From the IMG/VR virus record IMGVR_UViG_3300038327_000030, positions 1 through 20,988 of that record: a stretch of 20,988 bases of DNA. One strand, written 5' to 3'. The stretch's first letter is position 1. Every line of letters begins with the position of its first letter. Positions 803 through 18,874 of this stretch are shown here, one piece after another. Both the position numbers and the translations under genes were made by a program. The notes under the pieces are model-generated. The model was not told where the DNA came from, did no database searches, and saw only the letters and a program-made list of their open reading frames with translations. Source of the DNA: a virus.

Positions 803-838
803 AATAGGAGGACGAGAAAAAAAACCCGTCCTCCTATT
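803..838 (-). terminator. Perfect 12-bp hairpin terminator downstream of the lipoprotein gene
   Basis: AATAGGAGGACG (803-814) pairs perfectly with CGTCCTCCTATT (827-838), around a 12-nt A-rich loop. Read on the minus strand, the stem is followed directly by a short T tract (TTTCTT, plus the two T that end the stem), as expected of an intrinsic terminator for the gp32-lipoprotein unit. The minus-strand 5' arm overlaps the promoter-like 9-mer at 834-842. Confidence 0.75.
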
Positions 839-842
839 ATAG
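834..842 (-). promoter_or_regulatory. Promoter-like 9-mer CTATAATAG, candidate late promoter
   Basis: The minus strand reads CTATAATAG, one of four identical copies in gaps between transcription units of this window. It lies 47 nt upstream of the glycosyltransferase start and overlaps the 5' arm of the terminator hairpin by five bases. A transcript starting a few bases downstream would lack much of that arm and so escape termination. Similar in form to T4 late promoters (TATAAATA) and to a bacterial -10 box; no convincing -35 was seen. Confidence 0.5.
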
Positions 843-858
843 TCAGCTAGTTAATAAA

Positions 859-1401
859 CTACCCTTCTTCTTCTAACTCCTCTTCGAAAGTCGCTTCGGT
901 CCCCTCGGAAGAGTGAGTCATACCAAGAGCAGCGGCTACGCTGCCAAGGGATGCCCCAAGATCCACATTCTTATCTCCAGGCCATAGCGACTTGAATGCA
1001 CCAACATAGTGCTGACGCTTCCTTCGGAAGAACAGCAACAGGAGTGCTTCCCATCCAGCCAAAGCTGGAAAGAAAGTGGTGCCAATATGTATCGCTGCAT
1101 CAACGGCAGTACCGATAGCGGTATCCCCAAACTCACCCATAAGGGGAATATGTGCTGCATCTTCACTAACAAGGTCTTCCCTGTTAATTACAACTACTTC
1201 CATTCCCTCAGGGACAAGATTTCGGACTACCTCAGGCAGCGAGGCGACAGGAACCGTTGCGGCATCTGCGCCTTCCCGCACATTTTGTACGGAGGTTACA
1301 ACCATTTCTTCATCGCCAAAGAACCCTTCAAGGGTGGAACACCCTGCAAAAAGGAACGAAACAGCTAGAAGAATGGGTGCAAAGCTAAACAGTTTTCTCA
1401 T
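859..1401 (-). CDS. Phage lipoprotein with an internal hydrophobic segment; possible spanin-like protein
   Basis: 180 residues. The N-terminus has the form of a lipoprotein signal peptide: basic start (MRK), hydrophobic core, and lipobox LFAGC with Cys20 as the modified residue. The next residue is Ser, not Asp, which in Gram-negatives usually means outer-membrane sorting. A hydrophobic stretch around residues 93-125 (including ALAGWEALLLLFF) ends at the very basic RRKRQ, typical of a membrane segment with a cytoplasmic exit. The C-terminus is acidic (EEELEEEG). A lipid anchor plus a transmembrane helix is the topology of unimolecular spanins, but here about 50 residues follow the helix, so this is only a suggestion. 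The start is 2 nt after the gp32 stop and no strong ribosome site is visible, so translation may be coupled to gp32. No family was recognised. Confidence 0.7.
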   Translation of the reverse strand: MRKLFSFAPILLAVSFLFAGCSTLEGFFGDEEMVVTSVQNVREGADAATVPVASLPEVVRNLVPEGMEVVVINREDLVSEDAAHIPLMGEFGDTAIGTAVDAAIHIGTTFFPALAGWEALLLLFFRRKRQHYVGAFKSLWPGDKNVDLGASLGSVAAALGMTHSSEGTEATFEEELEEEG

Positions 1402-1403
1402 AA

Positions 1404-2144
1404 TTAATTACTCTGCATCTTTTGGAGGTAGTCATCATCCTTCACAGCCTCAACGGGTGTGGGATTCTGCATACTTCCTTCGTGAGAAGGAAGAAGGCCA
1501 ATTGCGGCAGTCTTCACATCTTCATACTCCTCCTTTTTTACAAGAGCATGAATATCGTGGAGGGAATCCATCCATGCTGCAACTTCAGCCTTGCTCCCAG
1601 CCTCGGAAGACTTGGGGCGAGGTTGAGACTGATCATACTTGGGCCATTGGCCTTCCATGGTCTTTACAATCTTAAAATCGTGACCAGAGGCGACATCGGT
1701 AATATCACCGAAATCTTCATCCAGCATGGCAGCGATAACCTTCTTGAAAAGGATCACGCCAATAGAGAGGATTTTAACATCCCCCGTCTCACGGTCTACC
1801 ACATTCAAGTAGTAGCGGGAACGAGGTTTAATCTGTCGGGCAAGATCCTCATCCTTGTTTGGCTCCTTCCAGAGCGAGTAGTAAGCATCACACAGAGGAC
1901 AAGGTTCCCCGTGGATTTTGCGGCAATGAACATTCTTAACCTGTCCATCACCAGTTGGAACCCTATGAATCTTCGTCTCTGCGTAGAACATAGTGTCCTC
2001 ATCCTTGCCGGGAAGAATACGAACGGAATTCGTACCCTCTAGCAATTGGATAAAATTCGAAAGGAAATCAGCGTTTCCACCAGCGGGTTTGTTCCCACTC
2101 AATTCTTCATGTTTTGCTCGGAGAGCGTCTAAGTCGATAGCCAT
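1404..2144 (-). CDS. 32: Single-stranded DNA-binding protein, T4 gp32-like
   Basis: 246 residues. Coats ssDNA during replication, recombination and repair, and organises helicase and recombinase loading in T4-type phages. The zinc-binding segment of the core is clear: Cys74, Cys82 and Cys85 (HCRKIHGEPCPLC), with a nearby His (60, 73 or 78) as the fourth ligand, close to the T4 His-Cys-Cys-Cys arrangement. RSRYYLNVVDRETGDVKILS near residues 108-127 fits the core OB-fold. The basic N-terminal part probably mediates cooperative binding. The C-terminus is only weakly acidic, unlike T4 gp32's strongly acidic tail, and the protein is shorter than T4 gp32 (301 aa). A perfect AGGAGG (2151-2156) sits 6 nt before the ATG, the strongest ribosome site in the window, matching the high level this protein needs. 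A promoter-like motif lies about 40 nt upstream. Confidence 0.9.
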   Translation of the reverse strand: MAIDLDALRAKHEELSGNKPAGGNADFLSNFIQLLEGTNSVRILPGKDEDTMFYAETKIHRVPTGDGQVKNVHCRKIHGEPCPLCDAYYSLWKEPNKDEDLARQIKPRSRYYLNVVDRETGDVKILSIGVILFKKVIAAMLDEDFGDITDVASGHDFKIVKTMEGQWPKYDQSQPRPKSSEAGSKAEVAAWMDSLHDIHALVKKEEYEDVKTAAIGLLPSHEGSMQNPTPVEAVKDDDYLQKMQSN

Positions 2145-2181
2145 GTTAAACCTCCTATGGTTAGTTGTGTTGGCAGTTATT

Positions 2182-2190
2182 GTATTATAG
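2182..2190 (-). promoter_or_regulatory. Promoter-like motif CTATAATAC upstream of gp32
   Basis: The minus strand reads CTATAATAC, 8 of 9 bases identical to the motif found in the other inter-operon gaps, and containing a perfect TATAAT. It lies in the 69-nt gap between the UvsY and gp32 genes, leaving a leader of roughly 30 nt that holds the AGGAGG site. A direct repeat TAAACTA lies just upstream on the same strand. It would allow gp32 and the lipoprotein to be expressed apart from the long replication operon. No hairpin terminator was seen in this gap. Confidence 0.5.
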
Positions 2191-2213
2191 TCGTAGTTTA
2201 CGAAATTTTTAGT

Positions 2214-2654
2214 TTATCTGTATAAGTTTGTCTCAGCGCGACGATTGGATGATAGCTGTACCAGCATATCCTTCTTATGCTCCAACGCAGACACCAAGCC
2301 CTTCAAAAGAGTATACTTGAAAGAAGCTTCATTTGCTCTCTCTGTATATACTCGGAACTGATCGGAAGACTCAACAAAATCGTCCAAATCTTTGGCTGTT
2401 TGTTTCGCTGCCGTAGCGGATTTTTGGTCTTTTCTCGTTTGTGCCGTATATTTAGTTAAAGTAAGGTTTGCGTCATCAAGCCTTTTTTTAGCTACCGACA
2501 GTAATCCTTGATAATACGAATAGATAGAAGCCTGTTTAGCCATCTCAGAGTCAATACTGTGCTTATCAAACTGCGTTGCCGCATCTGCGATATCCACATA
2601 ATTTTCCCAAGTTAGGTCTTCCAACGCTTCTAGTAAATCGGTCGCTTTATTCAT
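2214..2654 (-). CDS. uvsY: Probable UvsY-like recombination mediator
   Basis: 146 residues from the chosen ATG (2654). UvsY displaces gp32 and loads the UvsX recombinase on ssDNA. The protein is almost all helical and charged, with long amphipathic stretches, as expected of T4 UvsY (137 aa). Features shared with phage UvsY-like proteins are the N-terminal LLEALEDLTWENYVDI, IDSEMAKQ near residue 35, and the C-terminal KKDMLVQLSSNRRAE. An alternative TTG at 2666 is in frame, but the ATG at 2654 has GAGGAA upstream and overlaps the peptidase gene by 8 nt, the packing seen throughout this operon. Its place between helicase and gp32 fits a recombination role. The match is by pattern and context, not by invariant catalytic residues, so another small coiled-coil protein remains possible. 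Confidence 0.6.
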   Translation of the reverse strand: MNKATDLLEALEDLTWENYVDIADAATQFDKHSIDSEMAKQASIYSYYQGLLSVAKKRLDDANLTLTKYTAQTRKDQKSATAAKQTAKDLDDFVESSDQFRVYTERANEASFKYTLLKGLVSALEHKKDMLVQLSSNRRAETNLYR

Positions 2655-3021
2655 AATATTCCTCAAAAAGTATTTTCCATAATTCCGAGTTTAAGTTCTT
2701 AAACATTAGAAAGCATCTACAAGAGGCTTCCGTAATATACTCGTTGGAGTTAGTCAAGACATCTTCATCTTTATCATGATCTCCTCCCAATCCAAAGGTT
2801 TCCATCATTGCATGACACACCTCATGTATAATAGTCGGATGTGCTATCTTATCCGACATTGAATCCTCTAAAGTTATCGTAAGCTCATTGAAGTCGGTGA
2901 CACCAAAGCACTTAGACTCGTCAGAGTAAAGATTCTTTTTAAGCTTAAACTCAAACTTTGTCCAACCCACATCAAACTCTTTCGGCAACTTATCTAGTAA
3001 CCTATTCTTCCTCGTTGTCAT
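2647..3021 (-). CDS. Small HExxH zinc metallopeptidase-like protein
   Basis: 124 residues from ATG 3021; an in-frame GTG at 3027 would add two residues, but GAGGG lies suitably before the ATG. The helix IIHEVCHAMMETFG carries an HExxH zinc motif (His66, Glu67, His70), and a downstream helix NEYITEASCRCF offers Glu94 or Glu98 as third ligand, the layout of minimal zincins such as the ImmA/IrrE and SprT-like groups. The N-terminal half looks like short strands (FDVGWTKFEFKLKKN, FNELTITLED) leading into the active-site helix. No signal peptide or DNA-binding domain is visible, so it should act in the cytoplasm. It overlaps the helicase gene by about 20 nt and the UvsY gene by 8 nt, so it is co-translated with replication genes. 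The target is unknown. The metal motif is clear; proteolytic activity is inferred. Confidence 0.68.
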   Translation of the reverse strand: MTTRKNRLLDKLPKEFDVGWTKFEFKLKKNLYSDESKCFGVTDFNELTITLEDSMSDKIAHPTIIHEVCHAMMETFGLGGDHDKDEDVLTNSNEYITEASCRCFLMFKNLNSELWKILFEEYYE

Positions 3022-4303
3022 ACTCACCCTCTGCCATTCTTAAAATATTGTAATCTATTGTCATTGGGACAGTAAACCGAGGTCTACCATTTCTAGACTT
3101 AACCACATAAGCCCTCATTCTTCCTGCATCAAACTCTTCCTCACTTTGATTAAGAGAGATAGCGAAATCACAGGTTCTAATCTTACCATAGGAGTCACCT
3201 AACTCAGTATCGGTAATAATCTTCACAGCCCTTCCCATCCTGTTGGTTTGAGTTGCTGTCCATAGAAGAACCTTTTCCTCCATAGCTAATCCCCGAAGTT
3301 CCTCTGCGATCCTCTGTTGAGCCTGATACTCAGGCTGTCCGTCTCTAGTGGGCCTGAGAAGCTCCAGATAGTCGATAATGATTACCTCAGGTGAGAACTC
3401 CTCATAGTTTCTTAGTTGCACCAGAAGGGCTCTCAGACCATTCACAGTAACAGTCCCACAAGGGAACTCCTTAATCATAAGCTGACTATCAGGAAAGTTG
3501 GTTTGGAAAATACTTAGCCTTTCGTCAACTTTAAGCTGGGCGGCAGGATCTTTTAGTTGGGTCTGAGGGATTAAGGTCATCACGGAGTCGAACCTCTGTG
3601 CGATCTTGTCCTCTGACATTTCCAGCGACACATATAGCACCTTGCGTCCCTCAAGCATACTTTGAACTGCTTGGTTGACAAGCCATAGGGATTTCCCTAC
3701 CCCTGGAGGGGCAATAACCATTGCAAGCTCTTTCTCACCCAAACCCCCCTCAAGGGATTGGTTCAACATAGGGAGTAAAGTCTTATACTTGTCCTGTTGC
3801 TCAGAATTATGAGTACGCTCCCATCTATCCTTAAAATTAGAAAAATAAGTCTGTCCAATATCGACTGTGCGACTGACCAACAAAGCCTTTCTTACAAGTT
3901 CTTCTGTCTCCTCCACCCTGTCCTCCTTAATGAGAACTAGGGACTGCTTAATTGCAGCCTTCATAGCCTCACGCTTGGCAAAGGTTTCAATTAGGTCAAG
4001 GTAGTACTCATCTGCATCCAAAGCAGAGGTGTCTAACTTGTTGATATATTGAAGCTCATCTGTGAAGTCATGTAGAGATTCTTTTTCCGACTTGGTAGAC
4101 CTAATCTCCTGCTCAATGAAATCATCAGTAGGGAGCTTCTTATACTTCTCGTAATGATCTCGGACTACAGAAAAAATCCTTCCATGTGTGGGAAACTCAA
4201 AATAATCAGGCTTAACTAGATTGACAATTTGTAGATAAAAATCTGAATCTGATTTGAGGAGGTATAACATTCCCCTTTGAATATTTTCGCTAAATTCGTA
4301 CAT
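3002..4303 (-). CDS. 41: Replicative DNA helicase, DnaB/T4 gp41-like
   Basis: 433 residues. Hexameric 5'-3' helicase that unwinds DNA ahead of the fork. An N-terminal helical domain (about 1-150) resembles the DnaB/gp41 collar. The RecA-like motor follows, with Walker A APPGVGKS at 198-205, YVSLEMSEDKIAQR near 224-237, and Walker B VIIIDYLE near 307-314. WTATQTNR and GDSYGKIRTCDFAISLNQ fit the later DnaB-family motifs. Length is close to T4 gp41 (475 aa) and there is no primase domain; no separate primase gene lies in this window. GAGGAG (4308-4313) is 4 nt before the ATG. The stop overlaps the metallopeptidase gene. Confidence 0.92.
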   Translation of the reverse strand: MYEFSENIQRGMLYLLKSDSDFYLQIVNLVKPDYFEFPTHGRIFSVVRDHYEKYKKLPTDDFIEQEIRSTKSEKESLHDFTDELQYINKLDTSALDADEYYLDLIETFAKREAMKAAIKQSLVLIKEDRVEETEELVRKALLVSRTVDIGQTYFSNFKDRWERTHNSEQQDKYKTLLPMLNQSLEGGLGEKELAMVIAPPGVGKSLWLVNQAVQSMLEGRKVLYVSLEMSEDKIAQRFDSVMTLIPQTQLKDPAAQLKVDERLSIFQTNFPDSQLMIKEFPCGTVTVNGLRALLVQLRNYEEFSPEVIIIDYLELLRPTRDGQPEYQAQQRIAEELRGLAMEEKVLLWTATQTNRMGRAVKIITDTELGDSYGKIRTCDFAISLNQSEEEFDAGRMRAYVVKSRNGRPRFTVPMTIDYNILRMAEGEYDNEEE

Positions 4304-4315
4304 GTGGCTCCTCAG

Positions 4316-4744
4316 CTACTGTGGTTTAATTTTTTTACTTGGATCCATTCCTGCCTTATCATAGACTTGGCTGCTCAATTTCTTGGAAGCATCTAAACCT
4401 CTTTTAACCTCGTTATCACTTAATCGTCTCGCTTTGGCAGCTTTAATATACCCTTTTGAGGGCTCATACTTAGCATAGTGCTGCCATCCAGACCCCATAC
4501 GCTCTGAGCATTTGTCTTGGAGCTTTTTATTAATTTCGTCAGAACCCCCCTGCTTATTATATCCTGTAGTCTCAGTCCATCCTGCTCCTTTAAAGTGAAC
4601 AGGAGGAGCTTCTCTATTTAACCAATTTTGTCCACACCTATCCCCACAGTGAGGACATTTAGTTTTTTTTGCTGGGCTCCCAAACTTATACTCTTTTTCC
4701 CATGACACTTTGCAAGTGGTACATGCATACTCATATATTTTCAT
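4316..4744 (-). CDS. FmdB-type zinc-ribbon protein of unknown role
   Basis: 142 residues from ATG 4744. This start overlaps the reductase stop as ATGA, the usual coupling here, and gives the family's normal N-terminus (MKIYEYACTTCK); the in-frame start 30 nt further upstream would add residues unlike the family. CTTCK and CPHCG about 27 residues later are the two CxxC knuckles of a FmdB-like zinc ribbon, and a further Cys follows at once (DRCG). The remaining ~100 residues are very basic (many Lys/Arg) and low in hydrophobics, suggesting nucleic-acid binding. Such zinc ribbons in phages are usually annotated only as putative regulatory proteins. Its place between nrdJ and the helicase suggests a nucleotide or replication link, but no function can be assigned. 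Confidence 0.7.
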   Translation of the reverse strand: MKIYEYACTTCKVSWEKEYKFGSPAKKTKCPHCGDRCGQNWLNREAPPVHFKGAGWTETTGYNKQGGSDEINKKLQDKCSERMGSGWQHYAKYEPSKGYIKAAKARRLSDNEVKRGLDASKKLSSQVYDKAGMDPSKKIKPQ

Positions 4745-6645: not shown

Positions 6646-6646
6646 G

Positions 6647-9269: not shown

Positions 9270-9919
9270 AAAGCTTCCCAGCTAATAGGAAAGAGGTCAA
9301 CCATCACTTCTCCGATTGCTTTGGCATATTCTTGAGTTTCTTTCTGCGTATGTCCCTCTGTTCGGAGTCTATACATATGGAACCACCCCAGCAACGACCC
9401 TGTGGTAACAGTAGTAGTAAACATAGACTGAGGTAGAACCATGCGAGCTTGCTCAGGACAAACCCCAGCATCTAACAATTCCTCATAAGTAGTATGGGCG
9501 AGGTTGCAGGTTGTATCATAGTCATCTTTAGCATAAATGTCTGGGTCCAATATCTCTTCTGAACTACCTTGTTTAACATTATCCGCACTCTTTCTCCACT
9601 CCTCTGGGCTATGGAACTGCGGGGAGGTTGTTATATACCTCCTAGAAATCTCGCTCCAAGAAAAACCTACTTGATGTTTGCCAAGCTGGCGCAATACAAA
9701 AATAGGAGCAAGAATGCGTAAAGTGCATACAGGGTGGCGAAACGGGAGAACATGGTCATGCTTCGCCAAGTATTTAATAAGTTGGTTATCCTTACATTCA
9801 TCAAAAGCCTCCTGTTCTTTATCAAAGGAGCATCGTGCTGCGTTTACTACCAACAAATCCCCATCGACGGTAGCGTTCATCAATTCGACGGAGCCGTGAT
9901 CTAAACATTTAATTTTCAT
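9251..9919 (-). CDS. thyX: FAD-dependent thymidylate synthase ThyX
   Basis: 222 residues. Makes dTMP from dUMP using methylenetetrahydrofolate and FAD. HVLPFRHP (56-63) matches the H-x-S-P-F-x-H segment that contacts flavin. The family signature, usually RHRxxSxNExSxRY, appears as KHQVGFSWSEISRRY (81-95): Lys-His-Gln replaces Arg-His-Arg, Ser replaces the Asn before Glu90, and the loop is one residue longer; the E-x-S-x-R-Y end is intact. R177-type C-terminal dUMP-binding residues are represented by the LPQSMFTTTV segment near 161-170. The start overlaps the upstream 563-aa gene by 4 nt (ATGA). A TATAATG-like sequence about 30 nt before the ATG, inside the upstream gene, could be a weak internal promoter. 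With NrdJ it forms a deoxynucleotide supply pair. Confidence 0.9.
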   Translation of the reverse strand: MKIKCLDHGSVELMNATVDGDLLVVNAARCSFDKEQEAFDECKDNQLIKYLAKHDHVLPFRHPVCTLRILAPIFVLRQLGKHQVGFSWSEISRRYITTSPQFHSPEEWRKSADNVKQGSSEEILDPDIYAKDDYDTTCNLAHTTYEELLDAGVCPEQARMVLPQSMFTTTVTTGSLLGWFHMYRLRTEGHTQKETQEYAKAIGEVMVDLFPISWEALCEHSL

Positions 9920-11607
9920 AGCATATACTTTATCTCACTAACATTATAGCGATAAGAAGTAAACGGGTTGGAGAAAGGATATTGTTTTAAAGTATTATAA
10001 ATCACGCCTTCTACTGCCAAGCTTCCTATTACTAACCCAGACCAAGTAGAAGGAGACTTACTACTCTGAAAGAACTTACTATTAGGCATTACCCGCAAAG
10101 TGGCATTATGGGTCATAAATGAATCTTGAATATCCTGTTGCATTTTTTCTATGCTTGCTTCTGAAGATTCTACTAAAGCCCTTCTATTAAAAACTAATTT
10201 AGTAAGCTCTAATCCCCAAAATAGTATACCTTCTTCAAATTGGGGTTGGATATCAGGGTGTTGACCTATAGGTATACTGTGTTCAAGAGTTCGAAACTTC
10301 TTCTCCCATTCGTAAGATTCTGTATTGAATACTGGATCTATATGTTTAAGTTTTAGTAGAGCTTTATTATCATAATCAAATACAGAGTGAGCAGTATCGA
10401 CCATAAGACTGAGATTCTTATAATATTGCTCACTTCTTTTTTTAGGTAAAATGTCAATAGCATATGCTAATGCCATCATAGCTTGTCCATAGGCCCTACC
10501 TGTAATTTCACATCCCTTCTTTTTTGGATAAGATTCAAGTAAATTATAGCAAGTCCACCAAGCATAATTAGGAGATCCTCCTTTAGTGTTTGCTGTAGTC
10601 CAACGCAAGCTAACATCATTAGCAATAAATTCCAAAATTATCTCAGCAAATTTATATCCTTGTTTAGCTAAGAAGTATGCAGGATGGCTGATCCTGCCTA
10701 AATGCTGGTGATCCAACATTTTGTAAGAGCCATCAATTCTGGGCTGATTTTTAGGGCTATCTTTTTTTACTTTAGTAAAGCCTTCTGTTTCTATAGCTCT
10801 GCTACTATCATGCCCTTTAAACAGGTCTCCAGATGTCCAAGGGGTTATAAAATTAGTTACTTTAGGGCTGATCTTAAAAATCATCATTCTATTTGCCCAG
10901 CCTAAAAGGATATCCGCAGCCGCTGATACTCCATCTTGAGAGTGTGCCCAATAAAGATTTGGATAAATACCTTCTCCTCCAGGGAAATTCGCATCAGAGG
11001 GTCCATAGATATAAACTGGCCCTGATTTAATCTTGCGGAAGTTTATCCTCTTTTCTATTGGTTTGCTTATCCAGCTTTTAATAAACTTGGAAGTTTCCTC
11101 GGGAGAAGGCCCACTAGGCACCAGATACTTACTGAGATTGTTATAGAAATATTTTGCTTCTGGATTAATATCCATTATCCAAGCTTGGCCTGGAAACAGC
11201 GTTCCGTTGTTATGGGTTTTAATAATTTTCCCATTGTTTGAAACAACAATCTTTATGTCAGAGATTACTCCAACATCTTCAAAGGCATTTATAATAAATA
11301 AATGAACCTTATTAAAGGACTCTGTGCGAATTAATTGGAGATTCTTAAAGGTGGCTACTGATACGCCTTTTTCTGATTGGAAAAAATCGCGGGACTTTAT
11401 TTGAGTAGATTCTTTATTTACACTAATCTCCAAGGTGAACTCACCTGAAGGGGTTGGTTTTTTACGGGGCTTAGAACGCTTTTGTATAAAGTTTTTAAAG
11501 CGGTTCAGTATATACTCTCGTTTACTTCTTGCCTCTTTTAGATAGCTTCTAAGGCGTATTAGGAGCCCTAGTAGTTTAGGGTTGTTTCTCTGGGAGTGTT
11601 TTTTCAT
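9916..11607 (-). CDS. 563-residue protein of unknown function, possible alpha/alpha-toroid fold
   Basis: No family was recognised with certainty. Residues 1-55 are strongly basic (over twenty Lys/Arg) and would be disordered or bind nucleic acid or membrane. Residues ~55-150 look like beta strands (FTLEISVN, KVHLFIINAF, DIKIVVSNNGKII). Residues ~210-480 look like repeated amphipathic helix pairs. DHQHLGRISHPAYFLAKQGY near 300 followed by FAEIILEFIAND resembles the D-x-x-H...YL-TGD pattern of six-hairpin, glycan-active toroid proteins, and AYGQAMMALAYAIDILP would be a further hairpin. No signal peptide is seen. It sits inside the replication operon between polymerase and thyX, overlapping thyX by 4 nt. 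Before its ATG is a six-codon minicistron (11624-11604, MTDNEL) whose stop overlaps the start as ATGA; no Shine-Dalgarno site is visible. It may be a late-acquired moron-like gene. Confidence 0.6.
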   Translation of the reverse strand: MKKHSQRNNPKLLGLLIRLRSYLKEARSKREYILNRFKNFIQKRSKPRKKPTPSGEFTLEISVNKESTQIKSRDFFQSEKGVSVATFKNLQLIRTESFNKVHLFIINAFEDVGVISDIKIVVSNNGKIIKTHNNGTLFPGQAWIMDINPEAKYFYNNLSKYLVPSGPSPEETSKFIKSWISKPIEKRINFRKIKSGPVYIYGPSDANFPGGEGIYPNLYWAHSQDGVSAAADILLGWANRMMIFKISPKVTNFITPWTSGDLFKGHDSSRAIETEGFTKVKKDSPKNQPRIDGSYKMLDHQHLGRISHPAYFLAKQGYKFAEIILEFIANDVSLRWTTANTKGGSPNYAWWTCYNLLESYPKKKGCEITGRAYGQAMMALAYAIDILPKKRSEQYYKNLSLMVDTAHSVFDYDNKALLKLKHIDPVFNTESYEWEKKFRTLEHSIPIGQHPDIQPQFEEGILFWGLELTKLVFNRRALVESSEASIEKMQQDIQDSFMTHNATLRVMPNSKFFQSSKSPSTWSGLVIGSLAVEGVIYNTLKQYPFSNPFTSYRYNVSEIKYML

Positions 11608-11629
11608 AATTCGTTGTCAGTCATAATTT

Positions 11630-12745
11630 TTAAGCATTCATATACTCTTTAATCTCTTGAAGGTTCTGTGGTTTACCCTCTTTAAAGTCTACCTCGATAC
11701 CATCTCCAAAGGAAAAGCCTACCTCAGCATCAATCTTAAGAGGAACATCGAAATGGATATTAAAGTGTTCTTTAATAAAAGGATAGTTTACCAATTCATC
11801 GTAAACAATCTCCAAACACTTGGAGATGTGGTCCTTGTGACAAATAAGTTCTATACTGTCATGAACAGTAGCAACTGGGCGAGCATTTACAGACTCCTTT
11901 ATAAGCCTCCTGTGTGTCCCTAGGAGACCACACAAGAGTATATCTGATGCGGTGGACTGGATGGTGAAGTTAAGCCCCTGACGGGCTGCGCGGTTTATTA
12001 CAGAGTAATCCTTAGAAGCAATGTCTGGGAGGTTTCTACGCCTTCCAAATATGGTATAAGCATACTGATTTCTCTTGATAAACTTCTCCACGAACTTCAT
12101 GTACTCAAAGATTGCTGGGTAAACCTTCTGATAGTTAGAAATAATCTTCTTAGCTCTACCCATACTAATACCCGTGGTTTCAGCCAGATTAAAGGGACCC
12201 CCACCATATGCAATTAAGAAAGACACGGCCTTTGCAATCTGTCGTTCCTCTTTAGTAATCTCAGGCTTGTTGAACAGCATCCTTGCAGTATAAGTGTGAA
12301 GGTCTTCACCGTTGATGAAGGCTGTTTGCATATTGCCATCTTTAGCAATGTGGGATAGAACCCTCAACTCCATCGCTGCATAGTCTGCCGTTAGGAAGTA
12401 GTAATCCTTAGGAGCGATGAATAGGCTACGGATATTATTTTCTTTATTCCGTGGAAGCGTATGGAATGAAACCCCCATAGGTTTCTTAGCAGTATAAGCA
12501 GCACAAGATAGTCTTCCCGTTGCAGTCCCATCAAACCTATAATCTACAAACACCTTAGAGGTTTCATTATACTTGATAGCTTTAGAAGTACCTACGATAT
12601 AGGTCTTCTCTAACTTCTGAGACTTACGCAAGCCCAGTAAGCTCTTAATAAAGCTTTGCGAAATTCTTAGCTCTTCAGTTGTTTTCTCTTGGAGGACAGA
12701 CTGGCTAATGCGCTTTCCTTCCTCTCTATAATCCCACTTACCCAC
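11630..12745 (-). CDS. polA: Family A DNA polymerase, palm and fingers fragment
   Basis: 371 residues from a GTG start (12745). This is the catalytic domain of the phage replicative polymerase. The thumb tip (LRKSQKLEKTYIVG), TATGRLS, motif A DYAAMELR (first catalytic Asp), motif B RQIAKAVSFLIAYG (R-x3-K-x3-F-x3-YG, with Phe at the Klenow F762 position), and motif C VHDSIEL (second catalytic Asp; Ser where Klenow has Glu883) occur in order. The start of the thumb and the whole 3'-5' exonuclease lie in the two genes just upstream, so the polymerase is split in three. It overlaps the preceding fragment by 8 nt in a different frame, next to an A6 run. All catalytic residues visible here are kept, so it is probably active. 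Confidence 0.9.
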   Translation of the reverse strand: MGKWDYREEGKRISQSVLQEKTTEELRISQSFIKSLLGLRKSQKLEKTYIVGTSKAIKYNETSKVFVDYRFDGTATGRLSCAAYTAKKPMGVSFHTLPRNKENNIRSLFIAPKDYYFLTADYAAMELRVLSHIAKDGNMQTAFINGEDLHTYTARMLFNKPEITKEERQIAKAVSFLIAYGGGPFNLAETTGISMGRAKKIISNYQKVYPAIFEYMKFVEKFIKRNQYAYTIFGRRRNLPDIASKDYSVINRAARQGLNFTIQSTASDILLCGLLGTHRRLIKESVNARPVATVHDSIELICHKDHISKCLEIVYDELVNYPFIKEHFNIHFDVPLKIDAEVGFSFGDGIEVDFKEGKPQNLQEIKEYMNA

Positions 12746-13217
12746 GCTTTTTTAACTCCTCTTCTATGTATTCTAATAGTAACTTAAGAGTTGGGGCAGC
12801 TACCGAGGGGGAACCTTTCCCCGTGCGGTCAGGAGGGTACAACTCGAAAGAACCTTCCCTTGTATATAGTATCTCGATCAAGTCTAGATTTGAAGAAAAA
12901 TTGTCGGAAGTTTTAACTTGGTCGAAACTGTATAACTCGTCCTCCTCATCAATATTGGCTACTCGCAACTGACGGCCCACTTCCAATAACTTAGACTCGC
13001 TAACCTGCATCCCTTCATACTCCATCTGGGAGAAGGCAGACAACGAGGGCATGATTAACTTAGTGAGAAGCTTATCCACCCCTAGCTCTCTAATCTTCTC
13101 TTCAATCAGATTGAATAGCTTAAGAGTAAAGTAGGAGTCTGCTGCATTCCCTTCGCAGCAGTCCGACAAAGCCATGTTTGCCCAGTCGAAAGTCTTAGGG
13201 TTCTTAATTGTTAGCAT
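12738..13217 (-). CDS. DNA polymerase A fragment: end of exonuclease domain and start of thumb
   Basis: 159 residues bridging the two flanking polymerase fragments. The N-terminal 35 residues carry the third exonuclease motif (CCEGNAADSYFTLKLF, Asp27), though the Tyr usually four residues before that Asp is Gly here. LIMPSLSAFSQMEYEGMQV (about 53-71) is the typical start of the PolA polymerase domain, and TGKGSPSVAAPTLKLL near 137-152 corresponds to the tip-of-thumb T-x-x-G-x-x-S-T segment. It cannot fold as either enzyme alone and presumably assembles with its neighbours. The start overlaps the previous stop by one base (TAATG). The stop lies just after TTA AAA AAG; loss of one A from this A6 run (12748-12753) would join it in frame to the palm gene. 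Confidence 0.8.
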   Translation of the reverse strand: MLTIKNPKTFDWANMALSDCCEGNAADSYFTLKLFNLIEEKIRELGVDKLLTKLIMPSLSAFSQMEYEGMQVSESKLLEVGRQLRVANIDEEDELYSFDQVKTSDNFSSNLDLIEILYTREGSFELYPPDRTGKGSPSVAAPTLKLLLEYIEEELKKRG

Positions 13218-14239
13218 TAGAGATTTTCCAACTCATCAGAAAAGTATAGCTTGACCAGATCCATGAGACTCTTAGGTGCCGTCTCGTTAATGAAGTGGTG
13301 CATGATCTTAGTATCCCAAATATTAATAGGCTCGATGCCATAATTAATGAGGAACTTCACATCAAACTTTGCATTGTGAAATACCTTCTTATTCTTTGGG
13401 TTCTCTAAAATGCGGCGAAGGGTTACCCACACCTTAGCATAGTGGGGTTCTCCCTTTTTAAAAGGGCTATCCTTATGGTCAAGAGGAACAACCCAAGTCT
13501 GAGCCTTAGAAGCAATAGCAATCGTTTGAATGTTATCAGTCCTAAAGTTCAGACCAGTGGTTTCAATATCTACTGCGAGAGTTTCCTTTGTATCAAGTAG
13601 TAGCGCCCCCAGTACTTCCACATCTTCGATTTCCGAGAGGACTTCATAGGTAAAGTTCCCAGTAGCCTTTTTGCCAAGTACATATTTTTCATAAGCATTT
13701 TTAATGTCTGTTTCGAACAAGTACCTGTGTCGAGGCTCTTTTAGTACAGCATAAGGATGATAAATAGGCACAACGATACAACTGTGCCCAGAATTAGTTC
13801 TATATTCATAAGAGCCTCCTCTTTTATTCATAATGCCGCTCTTCTTAATAAGCATTTTCATAGCCAAGTTACCACAAACATAAATAAGACGAGGCTTTAC
13901 CTTATCAACTGTAGCATCAAGATGTTCTCGACACAGCTTCATATTGTTTGGAACCATATCACCCTCTTTAACAGAGGGACACTTTACAGCCGAAGAAAAC
14001 TGTACCTTCTCTGGGTACAAATCCTCAATTAGTTCTCGTTCTCGTTTGGAAAATACTTCTAGCTTCCCATACTTATAACGGAAAGAATCTGATAAAAAAA
14101 GGACTGGCCCCTCTGTTAAAAGGTCGTAGTCCATGTAAGCATGTTCAGGCTTACTTTCTGTCAGAATTGTGCAACCCTCACATAAAGCATTGGGACAACT
14201 AGGTTTAAGTCCTGCATACATGTTATCCAGTTCACGCAT
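13217..14239 (-). CDS. UDG-like domain fused to the N-terminal part of a PolA 3'-5' exonuclease
   Basis: 340 residues. Residues 1-190 resemble the family 4/5 uracil-DNA glycosylase fold: Cys20, Cys23, Cys87 and Cys103 give the CxxC...C-x15-C pattern of the 4Fe-4S cluster (Cys15 is also present), and HP at 161-162 matches the C-terminal HP(S) motif. The usual GEAPG-type catalytic loop is replaced by SDSFRYKYG (50-58), so glycosylase activity is doubtful. Residues 200-340 are a DnaQ-type exonuclease: Exo I DIETTGL (Asp224, Glu226) and Exo II VFHNAKFD (Asp293). Exo III lies in the next gene, so the domain is split. Fusion of UDG-like and family A polymerase modules is known in SPO1-type phages. 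The start ATG lies 4 nt after the CTATAATAG motif and has no ribosome site; Met7 is an alternative start. Confidence 0.82.
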   Translation of the reverse strand: MRELDNMYAGLKPSCPNALCEGCTILTESKPEHAYMDYDLLTEGPVLFLSDSFRYKYGKLEVFSKRERELIEDLYPEKVQFSSAVKCPSVKEGDMVPNNMKLCREHLDATVDKVKPRLIYVCGNLAMKMLIKKSGIMNKRGGSYEYRTNSGHSCIVVPIYHPYAVLKEPRHRYLFETDIKNAYEKYVLGKKATGNFTYEVLSEIEDVEVLGALLLDTKETLAVDIETTGLNFRTDNIQTIAIASKAQTWVVPLDHKDSPFKKGEPHYAKVWVTLRRILENPKNKKVFHNAKFDVKFLINYGIEPINIWDTKIMHHFINETAPKSLMDLVKLYFSDELENL

Positions 14240-14243
14240 TAGT

Positions 14244-14252
14244 CTATTATAG
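14244..14252. promoter_or_regulatory. Bidirectional promoter-like 9-mer between the polymerase operon and the sigma gene
   Basis: The whole divergent gap is 16 nt (14240-14255) and is almost filled by CTATTATAG (plus) / CTATAATAG (minus). The 9-mer is palindromic except for its central base, so it can be read in both directions. It ends 4 nt before the minus ATG at 14239 and 3 nt before the plus ATG at 14256. If used as a -10 or late promoter, both mRNAs would start at or within a few bases of the start codon. No ribosome site fits on either side. Confidence 0.55.
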
Positions 14253-14255
14253 GGT

Positions 14256-14609
14256 ATGGGGAAAAAGGTGCATTACATAAACAACAAAAGGTTTGAAGAA
14301 ATTATCCCCCTCTATCTTAGTACCCCGAAAGAATACGAAGATGAGTTGATGGAACTATTTGATCTGTTAATCACTAACATATTAGAATCGTTCAAGTTTA
14401 ATATAGACAAAGAAGATGCAAAGCAAGAGTGTTTTTTATTAATTCTCAAAACCCTCAAGAATTTCCAACCCTCTAAAGGGAGCGCATTTAATTACTTCAC
14501 TACTGTAATAGTGAATAATCTGAAACTCCTTTACACTAAGAACAAAAAGTACGAAATAAAGCTTACTGAATACCAAGAGCTAAAAGGAAATCACAAACCT
14601 AGTTCGTGA
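14256..14609 (+). CDS. 55: Short sigma-70 region 2 protein, probable late sigma factor (T4 gp55-like)
   Basis: 117 residues. In T4, gp55 replaces the host sigma on RNA polymerase and recognises the TATAAATA box of late promoters. Here residues ~50-92 match sigma region 2: a helix DKEDAKQECFLLILKTLKNF, the turn QPSKGSAFNYF (the F-x-P-x-x-G-x-x-F pattern), then an aromatic/hydrophobic helix FTTVIVNNLK that would contact the -10 element. There is no region 4, as in gp55. It is shorter than T4 gp55 (185 aa), and the hydrophobic C-terminal tail by which T4 gp55 binds the sliding clamp is not seen: the protein ends in polar residues. It is on the opposite strand to nearly all other genes and its 3' end overlaps the next minus gene by 19 nt. 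Assignment rests on fold pattern and context. Confidence 0.62.
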   Translation: MGKKVHYINNKRFEEIIPLYLSTPKEYEDELMELFDLLITNILESFKFNIDKEDAKQECFLLILKTLKNFQPSKGSAFNYFTTVIVNNLKLLYTKNKKYEIKLTEYQELKGNHKPSS

Positions 14610-14917
14610 TATATCTTAGATAAGTAATCCTCTGATTCCACACCCCCCCTCTTAAGAAGAACCAAATGAGGTAGCTTTGTAGTTTTAAAAATTACAAACG
14701 CATGAGGCATAGTGAAACTATCCACAATGAACAGAGGCTTTGCCCTTTTATTAGGGTCTGGGTGAGAGAGCTTCTGCTTGATATCGTCTACCAAGGTCTT
14801 GGAATGAGCATCCCACAGGGAGACATATAAGATACCAAGATCTTGCTTGGTTTTCTTTTGACGCTTAATAATTTTATTAAGCTCATTCTCAGTTTTGAGA
14901 AAAATAGGGCTGTACAT
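14591..14917 (-). CDS. Thioredoxin-fold-like protein lacking the CxxC motif
   Basis: 108 residues. LGILYVSLWDAHSKTLVDDIKQKL (about 28-51) looks like the first strand, active-site loop and helix of a thioredoxin fold, but DAHSKT stands where WCxxC would be. FVIFKTTKLPHLVLLKRGG (about 75-93) resembles the strand, cis-Pro loop (TKLPH) and following strand, and a C-terminal helix ends the chain. There are no cysteines at all, so no disulfide chemistry is possible; a binding or scaffold role is more likely. The start overlaps the upstream stop by one base (TAATG), so it is coupled to the ribbon-helix-helix-like gene. The fold call is tentative. Confidence 0.45.
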   Translation of the reverse strand: MYSPIFLKTENELNKIIKRQKKTKQDLGILYVSLWDAHSKTLVDDIKQKLSHPDPNKRAKPLFIVDSFTMPHAFVIFKTTKLPHLVLLKRGGVESEDYLSKIYHELGL

Positions 14918-15270
14918 TACTCTACTACTTCAATAGAGCCGCTGGCCTGAGCCTCGTCAACACCTATCAGGTTCCCTGATGTATCAAAGGTGAACCCAGA
15001 AGCTTCATACTCTTCTCGGTGATCCTCCATGTGTTTAACAAGGTTGGTAGTTAGTTGTTCTTCTAGAGAGCGAACCCCATTAAAGAAAATGGAACGAACA
15101 AAGTCGCTCATGGTGATCTCATCAGGTTTTACATTACTAGCAAAATTCTTAAATGCTTCTGCCTCTTCTTGGTTTAGTTTTAATTGAAACTTCATTCTAT
15201 TCTTACTCCGATACTCGGTTTTAATATTCCACCCTTCTGGGTTAAATGTTATCTTGTTTTCTGCATTCAT
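14917..15270 (-). CDS. Small protein with a ribbon-helix-helix-like segment
   Basis: 117 residues, acidic overall. The segment MKFQLKLNQEEAEAFKNFAS followed after a short linker by ITMSDFVRSIFFNGVRSLEE (about residues 26-72) has the strand-helix-helix form of MetJ/Arc-type DNA-binding proteins, with alternating polar/apolar residues in the strand and a Ser-capped second helix (TMSDFVRS). The linker between helices is longer than usual. The C-terminal ~45 residues are acidic and probably flexible. It starts 11 nt from the CTATAATAG motif at 15282-15290, without a clear ribosome site. It could be a small transcriptional regulator acting near the divergent promoter, but no target is known. Confidence 0.5.
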   Translation of the reverse strand: MNAENKITFNPEGWNIKTEYRSKNRMKFQLKLNQEEAEAFKNFASNVKPDEITMSDFVRSIFFNGVRSLEEQLTTNLVKHMEDHREEYEASGFTFDTSGNLIGVDEAQASGSIEVVE

Positions 15271-15281
15271 GTCCGATTAGC

Positions 15282-15290
15282 CTATTATAG
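15282..15290. promoter_or_regulatory. Promoter-like 9-mer in the divergent gap before the nuclease gene
   Basis: CTATTATAG on plus, CTATAATAG on minus, identical to the copies at 834, 14244 and 18785. It lies in the 36-nt divergent gap between the ribbon-helix-helix-like gene (minus, start 15270) and the nuclease gene (plus, start 15307). On the plus side it is followed by a good ribosome site, AAAGGAG at 15294-15300. A single near-palindromic box could serve both genes. Confidence 0.5.
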
Positions 15291-15306
15291 TACAAAGGAG
15301 ATATTC

Positions 15307-15825
15307 ATGGAAGATAATTACGATTTAAATGAACTTCGCAAAAAACCTAAGAGGAAGAACAGCCGAACCAAAGGTAACACCTTCGAACGACAGATAGCAA
15401 AGCTACTCAATGATAGATTCAAGACCACAGAATTTTCGAGAAGTCCAGGATCTGGCGCGTTCGCCTCCACCCATACAGTCCCAGATCACTTAAAGATTTA
15501 TGGAGACTTGATAACCCCTAATAAATTTAGATTTTGTATTGAATGTAAGAAAGGATACAAGCATTTAAACCTTTATAGTTTATATAATCATAGCTCAGAT
15601 TTATGGAAATTTATAGAACAATCTGAAAAAGATTCAGGAAAATGTTCAAGGATACCCCTGGTGATCTTTAAACAGGATAGACAGCCAGCACTAGCTATTA
15701 TCCCACAATCAGTAGCAGTAACAGAGGATATTAAGTACATAGAAATCCATAACGGAAAACACTATAGGGTCTATCTATTTGAGGAACTCCTAAAGTGCTG
15801 GGACTCTATGTGGTTTGATCTATAA
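15307..15825 (+). CDS. PD-(D/E)XK nuclease, probable Holliday-junction-resolvase-like
   Basis: 172 residues. A Lys/Arg-rich start (RKKPKRKNSRTKG) leads into NTFERQIAKLL with Glu27, then SRSPGSGAF (45-52), GD67 (IYGDLI) and IE79-C-K81 (FCIECKKG). These are the E...GD...ExK residues of the restriction-endonuclease-like fold, in the arrangement seen in archaeal/phage Holliday junction resolvases (FER-x-x-A...R-x-x-G-S...GD...ECK). The substrate is inferred: the enzyme may resolve recombination intermediates before packaging, replacing T4 gp49. The ATG at 15307 is chosen because AAAGGAG lies 6 nt before it; an in-frame start at 15184 would place 41 extra residues across the divergent gap and the opposite gene. 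The 3' end overlaps the convergent 991-aa gene by 20 nt. Confidence 0.75.
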   Translation: MEDNYDLNELRKKPKRKNSRTKGNTFERQIAKLLNDRFKTTEFSRSPGSGAFASTHTVPDHLKIYGDLITPNKFRFCIECKKGYKHLNLYSLYNHSSDLWKFIEQSEKDSGKCSRIPLVIFKQDRQPALAIIPQSVAVTEDIKYIEIHNGKHYRVYLFEELLKCWDSMWFDL

Positions 15826-18781
15826 GTTTTTCTAAGAGAGCTTGTTGTCCTTGGAGGAACTGTGTGAGAAGATCCTCTTCTTTACTATGCACATCTCGAT
15901 TTCGTTCTCGAACAGCACTAGTATCACTCAAAGCGGCCATCCCTACTGTGGTAACAGCAGTTACACCTGATGGTTTTCTTTCAAACGAAACACCTCCTAA
16001 AGGTTTCTTACCATCTCTAATTGACCAAGAAGCTGTTCGTTGTCCTCCTCCTGAAATTCCACCTTCTAAAGAAAGGTCACCACCCATAACTCCCGCAATC
16101 ATACCGTAGATACCAGCATTAATACACCCCATAACCTGCTCCACTCCTCCTAGTTTCTCTTCTTGCTTTTCTTTTCCAGCCTCTACCTCTTCTGTTCCCA
16201 TTCCTCGCACATCCTTTGCACACTCATGAAGAGAGCCCCCGTCCCTACTCATTCTAAACAAAAGATAGGCTTTAGCTTCAGCAGACATAGGCTTAGACTT
16301 ATCATATTCTGGATTCTCTGGGTCGAAGTTCGCAGCCTCTCTACCCTCCCCCAACAACCGTGACAACTCGGCTATCTCAATATCTTCCTTAACTTTATCT
16401 AATTCTTCTTGATCTTTAGGATTGGGAGTACCATTACCTTGGAGAGCAGCTAACGCACGGTTAGCAGCCTTACCCCTCTCTTGATTTTTTGTATTCGCTG
16501 CGTCCCCACCTCTTGCCCTTAACCAGCTTGTAATAATAGCTTGCCCAGAATCCTCAATAAGCAGACCATCGGGGTCTGAAGGTTTGCTTCCGCTCAATAA
16601 CCCATGAGTTACAGCAAGTCTCGCATCTAATTTGCCTTGCATTTCACATGCAGCCTCCTTCATTGTCTTTGCTTCTCCCTTCTTATCCCCCTCCGTATGC
16701 TTACCCCAAGGTGCTTCTCCTAGTGCTTCTTCGTGAGCTTTAGAACAAGCATCTAAGCGTCTATCATTAGCCTCATAAAAATCTCTTTCCATCTTGCGCC
16801 TTTCCACTTTAGCGATTGCTTCTTCATCACCCCCAGCCGCAGCATCGGCTAACTCCTTATCCTTTTCCTTCTCCACTTCACTATCCCTATCACATTCCTT
16901 AGACATAGCAGAACTCAGGCCTTCCCCCATCTTAGTTCTTCCTGAGCGAATATTAGTATGAGTTTTAATCTCAACATCAATCTGAACATTATCGTCAGAG
17001 GTATCTTCTCCTTCTTCGGCTGCTTCGCTTACTTCGGGATCTACGGGTCGAGCTAAGTTGTCCCATCCCATCCCCTCTCCTGTACATTCAGAAAGCTTCT
17101 CTAAAGCTTCCGCTGGAGTGCCCTTCTCATTCTCCTTCATCTCCGCTGTCCATTTTGCGGCACTCTTTTTAGTAGCAATCTTTTTATTATCAGTCTTTTG
17201 ACCGGGAAGATCTGAGCCAACCTTTCCTTCAACTGTGGAATCAACTATGTCTAAGCTACCATATACCTTACCGAATCCTCGGGTGGAGGCAACGAGAATA
17301 ACCAAAGCTTTTGTTCCATCCTGACCTGGTTGTGTCACTCTAGATAATACAAAAGCAGCTTGTTCCTCTGTCCAACCCTCTCCATTAGGGGGGTCAGAAG
17401 TCAAATATTTTATAGCAAGCTCTGTCATCTTTGCATCTCCTAAGTCGGAATCAATGTCTACCAAACATTGTTGACCCATAGCACACAAACCTTTTGCAAA
17501 CATTTTTCTAGCTTCCTCCGCTGTAGTTTTATCAGCTAGGATTTCTGCGATCTTAGCGTCTGCTAAAGCTACTACTTCATCACAGTTCATTCTACCTTTT
17601 GCTGGTCCTGATCTAGTATCCCCTTCACAGTTCTCCATGTCTGCCATCAAACCCAAGTCGGCTAGAACGGCAGCATGTTCAACCAAGGTTCCTCTTCTAG
17701 CGAAGTTAATATCCTTTCCTTCGGAAACCTTAGGAGCTTTAATAGGTTTAATATAACATGCAGTGTAGCCCTCACTATCTTTATCTGGGCAGTTTTTATT
17801 ATGATGGTCAATGGCTTTAGCAATTTGCTCTGCCATGTTAGTAGCAATATCATTAGTTCTGTTAGCATTCTGTCTATAAGACATATAAATGCCGTCGAAG
17901 GTTACTCCATTAGGAGTTACTTTAATACTGTCTGATAACTCTCCTAAGGCTTTAGCGGTTATTTCTTTAGGAAGATCTCCTTTACCGTCCCAACCCCTTA
18001 GTGAAGAGATTGTCTCGGTAGCTTTAGCGTAAGATTTTAGAGCCGTTAAAGCCTTTTCAGGGTCTATATCAGGTGAGTTATATAACTTATCTACAATGGT
18101 AGGGTTCTCAGCAGCAGCACCCGTTACCCCTAATCCTTGCTCTTCCTCTTTCCCCTTCTTAAAAATAGAATTAATAATTTTTTGAAGTCTACTGTGTTGT
18201 TGGTTAGGAATGTAGCCGGGAAAAAACGGTTGCTCATCAGCAATATTACCATCTTCATCTTTAGTTAAAAGACCATCCTTCTCCTCGTCCCCATTTATAA
18301 GACCTTGAAGCTTCTCTGCAATAGCTAAGGTCTCTTCTTCTGGGGTGAATTCGTCCGTCTCCTCAGAACCCCCACCCGCATCTCCCGGAGGAGTTTCCGG
18401 GGCACCTTTTTTCTTAAAGGGTTTAGCCTCCTCCCCACCAAACATAATACCCCAGTATTTATTAGCGGTCGGCTGTTTACCCCTCTGACCGTCCGCATCT
18501 ACGATGGCAACCCATTGAACTTGGTTAGTAGAACCTTTGTTAACTGTATCCCCAGCCATAATGGAACCAGTCTTAGTTTTATATAAACGGATCTCGGTTC
18601 CCGGAAAAGGTCCCGCTGCTGTCTCAATACTATCAGCCTCCCCAGCAGTAGAGACAATCTTTTGGATATTCTTCGCCTCCTCGCCTCCTGCTTCCACCTC
18701 ATCACCCTCACGCAAGGATAGCTTAAACTTCCTGCGTTTCAACTGGTTATAATTTTCTAACAGGGCGTAGTAATATTCCAT
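15806..18781 (-). CDS. 991-residue acidic protein of unknown function next to the tail genes
   Basis: No family was recognised. The N-terminus MEYYYALLENYNQLKRRKFK is a compact amphipathic helix followed by a basic patch; the rest is very rich in Glu, Ala, Lys, Asp and Gly, with Gly/Pro-rich linkers (for example PETPPGDAGGG near 130). Many regions look helical and coiled-coil-like (EKEKDKELADAAAGG, RRKMERDFYEANDRR). Cysteines recur about every 50 residues from the middle onward. A hydrophobic patch CINAGIYGMIAGVMGG lies near residue 880, and a Gly/Ser-rich C-terminal part ends in a helix (LLTQFLQGQQALLEKLIDQ). Its place just after sheath and tube, behind its own promoter-like motif, suggests a late gene for a virion or assembly protein. 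The start ATG is 3 nt from the motif with no ribosome site; a stop codon two codons upstream rules out a longer form. Confidence 0.75.
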   Translation of the reverse strand: MEYYYALLENYNQLKRRKFKLSLREGDEVEAGGEEAKNIQKIVSTAGEADSIETAAGPFPGTEIRLYKTKTGSIMAGDTVNKGSTNQVQWVAIVDADGQRGKQPTANKYWGIMFGGEEAKPFKKKGAPETPPGDAGGGSEETDEFTPEEETLAIAEKLQGLINGDEEKDGLLTKDEDGNIADEQPFFPGYIPNQQHSRLQKIINSIFKKGKEEEQGLGVTGAAAENPTIVDKLYNSPDIDPEKALTALKSYAKATETISSLRGWDGKGDLPKEITAKALGELSDSIKVTPNGVTFDGIYMSYRQNANRTNDIATNMAEQIAKAIDHHNKNCPDKDSEGYTACYIKPIKAPKVSEGKDINFARRGTLVEHAAVLADLGLMADMENCEGDTRSGPAKGRMNCDEVVALADAKIAEILADKTTAEEARKMFAKGLCAMGQQCLVDIDSDLGDAKMTELAIKYLTSDPPNGEGWTEEQAAFVLSRVTQPGQDGTKALVILVASTRGFGKVYGSLDIVDSTVEGKVGSDLPGQKTDNKKIATKKSAAKWTAEMKENEKGTPAEALEKLSECTGEGMGWDNLARPVDPEVSEAAEEGEDTSDDNVQIDVEIKTHTNIRSGRTKMGEGLSSAMSKECDRDSEVEKEKDKELADAAAGGDEEAIAKVERRKMERDFYEANDRRLDACSKAHEEALGEAPWGKHTEGDKKGEAKTMKEAACEMQGKLDARLAVTHGLLSGSKPSDPDGLLIEDSGQAIITSWLRARGGDAANTKNQERGKAANRALAALQGNGTPNPKDQEELDKVKEDIEIAELSRLLGEGREAANFDPENPEYDKSKPMSAEAKAYLLFRMSRDGGSLHECAKDVRGMGTEEVEAGKEKQEEKLGGVEQVMGCINAGIYGMIAGVMGGDLSLEGGISGGGQRTASWSIRDGKKPLGGVSFERKPSGVTAVTTVGMAALSDTSAVRERNRDVHSKEEDLLTQFLQGQQALLEKLIDQTT

Positions 18782-18784
18782 AGT

Positions 18785-18793
18785 CTATTATAG
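18785..18793 (-). promoter_or_regulatory. Promoter-like 9-mer CTATAATAG before the 991-aa gene
   Basis: The minus strand reads CTATAATAGACTATG, where ATG is the start codon of the 991-aa gene; only 3 nt separate motif and start. The sequence around it is nearly the same as at 14239 (CTATAATAGACTAATG). It lies immediately 3' of a 10-bp hairpin (18794-18831), giving a terminator-then-promoter arrangement between the tail tube gene and the next gene. Confidence 0.55.
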
Positions 18794-18831
18794 AGAAAGC
18801 CCAACCCAGAGGATTCTAGGCTGGGCTTTCT
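18794..18831 (-). terminator. Hairpin between the tail tube and 991-aa genes, probable terminator
   Basis: AGAAAGCCCA (18794-18803) pairs perfectly with TGGGCTTTCT (18822-18831), and CC/GG inside the 18-nt loop may extend it. On the minus strand the 3' arm ends in CTTTCT and continues into the promoter motif without a clear U tract, so termination may be incomplete. It lies 43 nt past the tail tube stop and would separate sheath-tube transcription from the next gene. It could instead stabilise the 3' end of the tail tube mRNA. Confidence 0.6.
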
Positions 18832-18874
18832 ATCCGATTAATTTGTGTTACTTAGAAACGAGGCCGCTTGATGA

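Follow-up and report, generated by a model that had tools for sequence, protein, structure and literature searches.

A candidate -10-only promoter box and a gp55-like sigma factor in an uncultured family of myophages

What starts transcription in a viral DNA whose gaps between transcription units carry one short word, exactly or with a single change? The question is raised by IMG/VR record IMGVR_UViG_3300038327_000030, a virus fragment of 20,988 bp (hereafter the window, at its full length), in which the 9-mer CTATAATAG, or box, stands in these gaps and, at one of them, beside a gene for a protein resembling the T4 sigma factor gp55. We propose that the box acts as core promoter for those transcription units of the family that are not early: a -10-only element (C, TATAAT, AG), whose most probable reader is the host RNA polymerase together with the phage's own gp55-like sigma. 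On this view one copy may serve two divergent genes, and the first gene of a unit would be translated from a leaderless mRNA. To this explanation as a whole we assign a probability of about 60%.

The box in the window and in related contigs

The window holds four exact copies of CTATAATAG, all on the minus strand, against 0.39 expected by chance, and none of 100 shuffles reached four; a one-base variant, CTATAATAC, stands at a fifth position (Table 1). The gene calls leave five real gaps (788-858, 2145-2213, 14240-14255, 15271-15306 and 18782-18874), of which four contain an exact copy and the fifth the variant, the remaining junctions being overlaps or short co-directional gaps of up to 22 nt. 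The first-pass annotation had claimed both the five copies and their presence in every gap where a new transcription unit must start, and both claims hold. The one-change class as such barely exceeds chance in the window (14 versus 7.9 expected, where the 14 include reverse readings of the exact copies). Since CTAT-W-ATAG is palindromic around its centre base, the 'minus' and 'plus' motifs described earlier are two readings of one box, every copy showing CTATAATAG on one strand and CTATTATAG on the other.

Relatives were collected with the gene for the exonuclease part of the DNA polymerase (pol) as query, which retrieved 80 IMG/VR loci with identities as low as 62%; they include G001, a 48-kb contig that carries the gene in a form identical to that of the window, and contigs of 130.6, 129.9 and 111 kb. 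The genome-wide comparison of genes with gaps, named beforehand as the test that could refute the earlier claim, was run on nine long relatives with a simple, crude gene caller that misses small genes such as sigma. CTATAATAG was the most gap-enriched of all 9-mers, with 34 of 37 copies in gaps, which are 6.9% of the DNA (log10 p = -35.6), so that the claim came through the comparison. Over the 80 contigs, CTATWATAG lay outside genes in 119 of 136 copies. Box-like sites numbered 7.95 per kb in divergent gaps, 1.45 in co-directional and 0.44 in convergent ones. The variant CCTATATAG, noticed among the k-mers, occurred at one gap site.

For conservation, we considered TATNATA within 18 nt of the start codon of distinct genes. 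It was present at every scored start of pol (54/54), sigma (52/52), the promoter-proximal 117-aa open reading frame ORF117 (56/56), the nuclease (56/56) and the 991-aa gene (11/11), and at none of 161 other starts (46 tube, 22 helicase, 12 single-strand DNA binding protein or ssb, 57 ORF108 and 24 sheath); at ssb genes the box stands further upstream than the range of this test. Controls shifted to three positions gave 0 for every gene except sigma at +60 (17), helicase at -60 (6) and sheath at -60 (1). Related contigs are not independent of each other in these counts; the several gene families are. The box/sigma system can be assigned, as far as sequence tells, to an uncultured myophage family, whose transcription units the box appears to mark.

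In the relatives, boxes are followed by pol, sigma, a UvsW-like helicase, a baseplate hub protein, terminase (box or close variant) and ssb (with a leader). Since the DNA polymerase, the UvsW-like helicase and ssb are preceded by the box as well as terminase and baseplate genes, an exclusively late use is not shown, and the class is better described as presumably 'not early' than as proven late. Its place before replication genes, its frequent closeness to the start codon and its sharing by divergent genes had been missed in the earlier reading.

Direction, predicted start sites and shared boxes

That the box is a promoter element we consider very likely. At one-sided boxes, counted once per family, TATAAT reads toward the gene in 14 of 14 families, and in one relative a box lies 11 nt upstream of a tRNA-Ile gene, which counts for a promoter because a translation signal would be senseless there. 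No -35 above the shuffled level was found at box sites (scores of 3.0-3.2 out of 6 versus 2.97 in shuffled sequence), nor any conserved upstream column in the 14 one-sided families, by which a MotA-like upstream element was ruled out. The T4 word TATAAATA was also discarded as the family's box, as it is not placed before starts in the relatives, where the enriched word is CTATAATAG. Three elements of the earlier proposal stand, namely the promoter, the missing -35 and the adjacent gene for a gp55-like sigma, and the box itself is to be corrected to C-TATAATAG, not TATAAATA.

The relatives have a second promoter class, TTGACA-N17-TATAAT, most often followed by N6-ATG, which we infer to be 'early'. 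In G006 (65102-72058), 15 such sites lie at 65-72 kb, apart from the boxes, which lie at 3-61 kb. This stretch is a run of about 15 small genes of no known function, most with their own TTGACA-N17-TATAAT-N6-ATG and no Shine-Dalgarno sequence.

Where TATAAT precedes an ATG that opens a frame of 40 codons or more, the distance between them shows a peak at 6 nt, with 33 cases against 2.7 expected from anagram hexamers, and in the family the box is often 3-5 nt from the start codon (TATAAT-N5-6-AUG). In the T4 control there was no TATAAT at 5-7 nt from an ATG, the TATAAATA boxes of T4 standing 14-29 nt from it. Promoters of the usual sigma-70 kind have their +1 at 6-7 nt beyond the -10 hexamer; applied to the 6-nt spacing, this makes the A of AUG the predicted +1. 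We considered as leaderless a start codon at the predicted +1 with no Shine-Dalgarno sequence: the spacing peak places the start codon there, and a Shine-Dalgarno sequence was found at 1 of 61 TATAAT sites with spacing 5-7, versus 51% of the genes of at least 100 aa. With the box at 3-5 nt from the AUG, many messages are therefore predicted to be leaderless, with no ribosome-binding leader, and we regard this as likely for the first genes of box units. Transcription toward the gene faced by TATAAT would begin 5-7 nt beyond the hexamer, which in many cases is the A of the start codon, and downstream genes would be translated via Shine-Dalgarno sites or overlapping starts. The two promoter classes of the family, box and TTGACA-N17-TATAAT-N6-AUG, have a common start-codon layout, which T4 boxes do not have. 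The sigma genes of five relatives (G004, G009, L033, L063 and L074) have predicted near-leaderless starts with GTG, not ATG.

Each of two divergent pairs, pol/sigma and ORF117/nuclease, has one box in common, and because the box is nearly palindromic we propose that one copy serves both genes. At the pol/sigma box of the window the two AUG A's are 17 bp apart, a geometry that fits a bidirectional spacing of about 18 bp there and in part of the relatives; such a box would couple replication and sigma supply. At the nuclease, the spacing between hexamer and ATG is 5 nt when TATAAT faces the gene (10/10) and 17-20 nt when TATTAT does (46/46), a pattern that could go back to no more than one or two ancestral flips.

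Table 1. Features of the window that bear on the candidate promoter box, with the neighbouring genes
Feature	Position	Strand	Remarks
Candidate promoter box CTATAATAG	834..842	-	Before glycosyltransferase-like gene; overlaps 5' arm of the upstream gene's terminator; box-in-terminator layout kept in G003, G004 and G013
Variant box CTATAATAC	2182..2190	-	Before gp32-like ssb gene; 30-40 nt leader and AGGAGG; layout kept in relatives
Putative shared box, divergent pol (-)/sigma (+)	14244..14252	.	4 nt to pol ATG, 3 nt to sigma ATG; TATAAT faces pol, TATTAT faces sigma
Putative shared box, ORF117 (-)/PDDEXK nuclease (+)	15282..15290	.	11 nt to ORF117 ATG, 16 nt to nuclease ATG; nuclease with Shine-Dalgarno sequence
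Candidate box before 991-aa gene	18785..18793	-	3 nt to ATG; directly after terminator hairpin; box at 11/11 starts of the 991-aa gene
Terminator-like hairpin	803..838	-	14 pairs, then T-rich tail; 5' arm largely missing from a transcript begun at the inferred start 829
Terminator-like hairpin	18794..18831	-	Ends tail operon, just before the 18785 box; RNA fold -29.4 kcal/mol, z -6.4
Glycosyltransferase-like gene	2..787	-	Open at window end; downstream of the 834 box
gp32-like single-strand DNA binding protein (ssb)	1404..2144	-	Downstream of the 2182 box
UDG and 3'-5' exonuclease part of split family-A DNA polymerase	13217..14239	-	Predicted leaderless start 14239; N-terminal alignment in relatives
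117-aa sigma region-2-only protein, gp55-like	14256..14609	+	Candidate box reader; Pfam, PHROG, profile, model
117-aa open reading frame (ORF117)	14917..15270	-	Function unassigned; promoter-proximal
PDDEXK / RusA-like nuclease	15307..15825	+	
991-aa protein	15806..18781	-	Function unassigned; predicted leaderless start 18781

The candidate sigma factor and the competing explanations

The 117-aa protein encoded beside the pol box scored 24.2 bits against Pfam Sigma70_r2 (cut-off 24). Among 51 homologues, PHROG profiles matched phrog_351 in 50 and phrog_234 ('late sigma transcription factor', gp55) in 40 (best 6.6e-5), and hhalign of the 51 homologues with eight gp55 sequences gave 88% and E 2.9e-6, including an N-terminal 'Y-(V/I)-(N/D)-N-K' stretch. 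The AF2 model (pLDDT 87) has the fold of sigma region 2; nearly all its listed PDB structure matches are sigma factors, with probabilities of up to 0.99 and weak E-values (0.12 or worse), and a direct PDB sequence search with the sigma returned no matches. The homology stops at about residue 115 of the 185 of gp55, so the protein is without the C-terminal part that contains the clamp-binding segment. These results bear out the earlier claim of a gp55-like sigma gene next to a copy of the box, and the protein is best described as a putative region-2-only sigma, a remote homologue of T4 gp55. That this sigma reads the box, as its adjacency, its homology and the absent -35 suggest, we consider rather likely.

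Several observations weigh against the proposed explanation. The gp55 match is remote: hhalign with the single T4 gp55 sequence was not significant, for which reason the profile was needed to relate the two proteins. The gp45 clamp was not found in 13 relatives by models that do find it in T4 and cyanophage S-RIM8, relatives which may be incomplete and in which a divergent clamp could escape; a T4-type activation is therefore not supported, and the family would fall outside the clamp-coupled T4 system, although its promoter probably works like that of T4 late genes, with the box and the start shifted. Among 54 relatives, 10 have the pol ATG in direct contact with the box (hexamer-to-ATG spacing 2) and 22 more have it at spacing 3-4. 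These distances leave too little room for an ordinary start site, so the pol mRNAs concerned may begin at another place, and the box of these relatives may work chiefly for sigma, which has a spacing of 5 in most relatives. Leaders are longer at some box genes (11 nt at ORF117 in the window, about 40 at ssb and 15-18 at the nuclease). Finally, a bare TATAAT could also serve the host sigma with an activator.

The last point leads to the strongest competitor, in which the box is a -10 for host sigma-70, either ordinary or helped by an activator (T4-middle-like, MotA/AsiA-like), and the phage sigma acts at other sites. In its favour, sigma-70 has TATAAT as its consensus, phage activators are common, and a hybrid site at G001 35409 joins a full CTATAATAG box to a TTGACA 17 nt upstream of its TATAAT. 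Against it, neither a -35 nor an upstream column accompanies the box, the distinct TTGACA-N17-TATAAT class is kept at its own place in G006, and a sigma-70 promoter scan of the window listed none of its boxes; we consider it unlikely, and a host sigma using all boxes was rejected for the same lack of a -35 and the same separate class. The early use by the host sigma that the first-pass annotation had offered as an alternative is disfavoured on these grounds. Somewhat less probable again is a real promoter with first genes that are not leaderless, with start sites further upstream or a later start codon in use. The pol spacing of just 2-4 nt in 32 of 54 relatives speaks for it, whereas the N-termini of pol in relatives align at the box-adjacent ATG, many relatives have no other in-frame start nearby, Shine-Dalgarno sequences are missing at box-proximal starts, and in the TTGACA class the spacings are canonical, 17 nt and then 6 nt to the ATG. 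In L064-L068, L073-L078 and other relatives the pol ATG directly abuts the box (TATTATAGATG), and a transcript from that box could not include the ATG.

A palindromic operator of a dimeric regulator, overlapping the start sites of divergent genes, would explain the perfect dyad of CTAT-W-ATAG about one base and its place between such genes; it would have no need for TATAAT to face the gene at 14 of 14 one-sided sites, by which a symmetric operator was rejected, nor for an ATG spacing equal to that of the -10 in the -35-bearing class, and we hold it very improbable. The box should accordingly be read as a promoter element rather than an operator, on the sequences at hand. TATAAT-like strings arising by chance from AT-rich gaps, to which the near-chance level of the one-mismatch class in the window could point, are practically negligible as an explanation: the excess of exact copies, the gap enrichment in relatives and the box at all scored orthologous starts, with shifted controls mostly zero, already refute them. 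Beyond the promoter with its gp55-like reader, a wider generalisation is offered tentatively, and we think it somewhat less probable than its opposite: in a lineage of myophages, promoter and translation start would be merged into one unit, a 9-bp near-palindromic box that is read by a minimal gp55-like sigma and brings the transcription start onto the AUG, in many cases of two divergent genes together (including sigma and the replicative polymerase), with host-sigma promoters built alike and promoter-proximal genes leaderless genome-wide.

Neighbouring features and comparison with known systems

Two boxes lie at terminators. For the 834 box, RNA arriving from upstream (850-785) folds with -27.2 kcal/mol versus -6.9 for RNA begun at the inferred start (829-785), so that this promoter would spare its own transcript. 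Both layouts, the overlap at 834 and the box directly after the hairpin at 18785, recur in relatives. The family-A DNA polymerase extends over three overlapping genes at 11630-14239 (-), for UDG plus exonuclease, a 159-aa part and the polymerase domain; of the 68 relatives in which all three parts occur, 55 have neighbouring parts in different reading frames, so the split appears genuine. Within the replication operon, a 563-aa open reading frame (9916-11607, -) has no PHROGs or Pfam match. A 180-aa open reading frame at 859-1401 (-) has a lipoprotein-like signal at its start (LLAVSFLFAGC) and no family match. The 130.6-kb relative G002 is QCKN01000003.1, a contig of the Prochlorococcus single-cell genome AG-409-P03, which could be the host or have been sorted together with the virus; psbA was not found in 13 relatives.

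If the explanation is right, a sequence rule (C-TATAATAG, 3-5 nt, AUG) would predict, for a phage family that is uncultured, where transcription units lie and which start sites and start codons they use, and T4-like sigma switching would be suggested outside the T4 clamp-coupled system. Should transcription indeed start at the AUG, these phages would offer a natural test of whether a phage can bypass or outcompete the Shine-Dalgarno-led translation of its host by leaderless initiation. In the open-access literature we found no phage lineage with two promoter classes that both place the start site at the AUG.

The T4 late promoter has the consensus TATAAATA at -13 to -6 (PMC1524935). Like T4 late promoters and gp55 (with gp33 and gp45), the family combines a short -10-only box with a phage sigma reduced to region 2, homologous at the profile level. 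Unlike T4, its box is C-TATAATAG, often stands 3-5 nt from the ATG (14-29 nt in T4) and also precedes replication genes, no gp45-type clamp was found in the 13 relatives, and the 117-aa sigma is without the C-terminal part of gp55. Bidirectional bacterial promoters have near-symmetric -10 elements with divergent starts most often 18 bp apart (PMC10268837); the near-symmetric box and the 17 bp between the pol and sigma AUG A's resemble them, whereas in this family the box stands between two conserved protein-coding genes, of which one encodes the presumed sigma, and bidirectional firing is putative. The lambda cI message is a known leaderless mRNA (PMC9031893) and phage transcripts have been termed 'often leaderless' (PMC5312081), to which the predicted starts at or beside an AUG with no Shine-Dalgarno sequence compare. 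In phages of the phiEco32 / 7-11 type, a phage-encoded sigma subunit is reported to work with the host RNA polymerase (PMC8948821), and the partnership proposed here is, by description, of the same kind.

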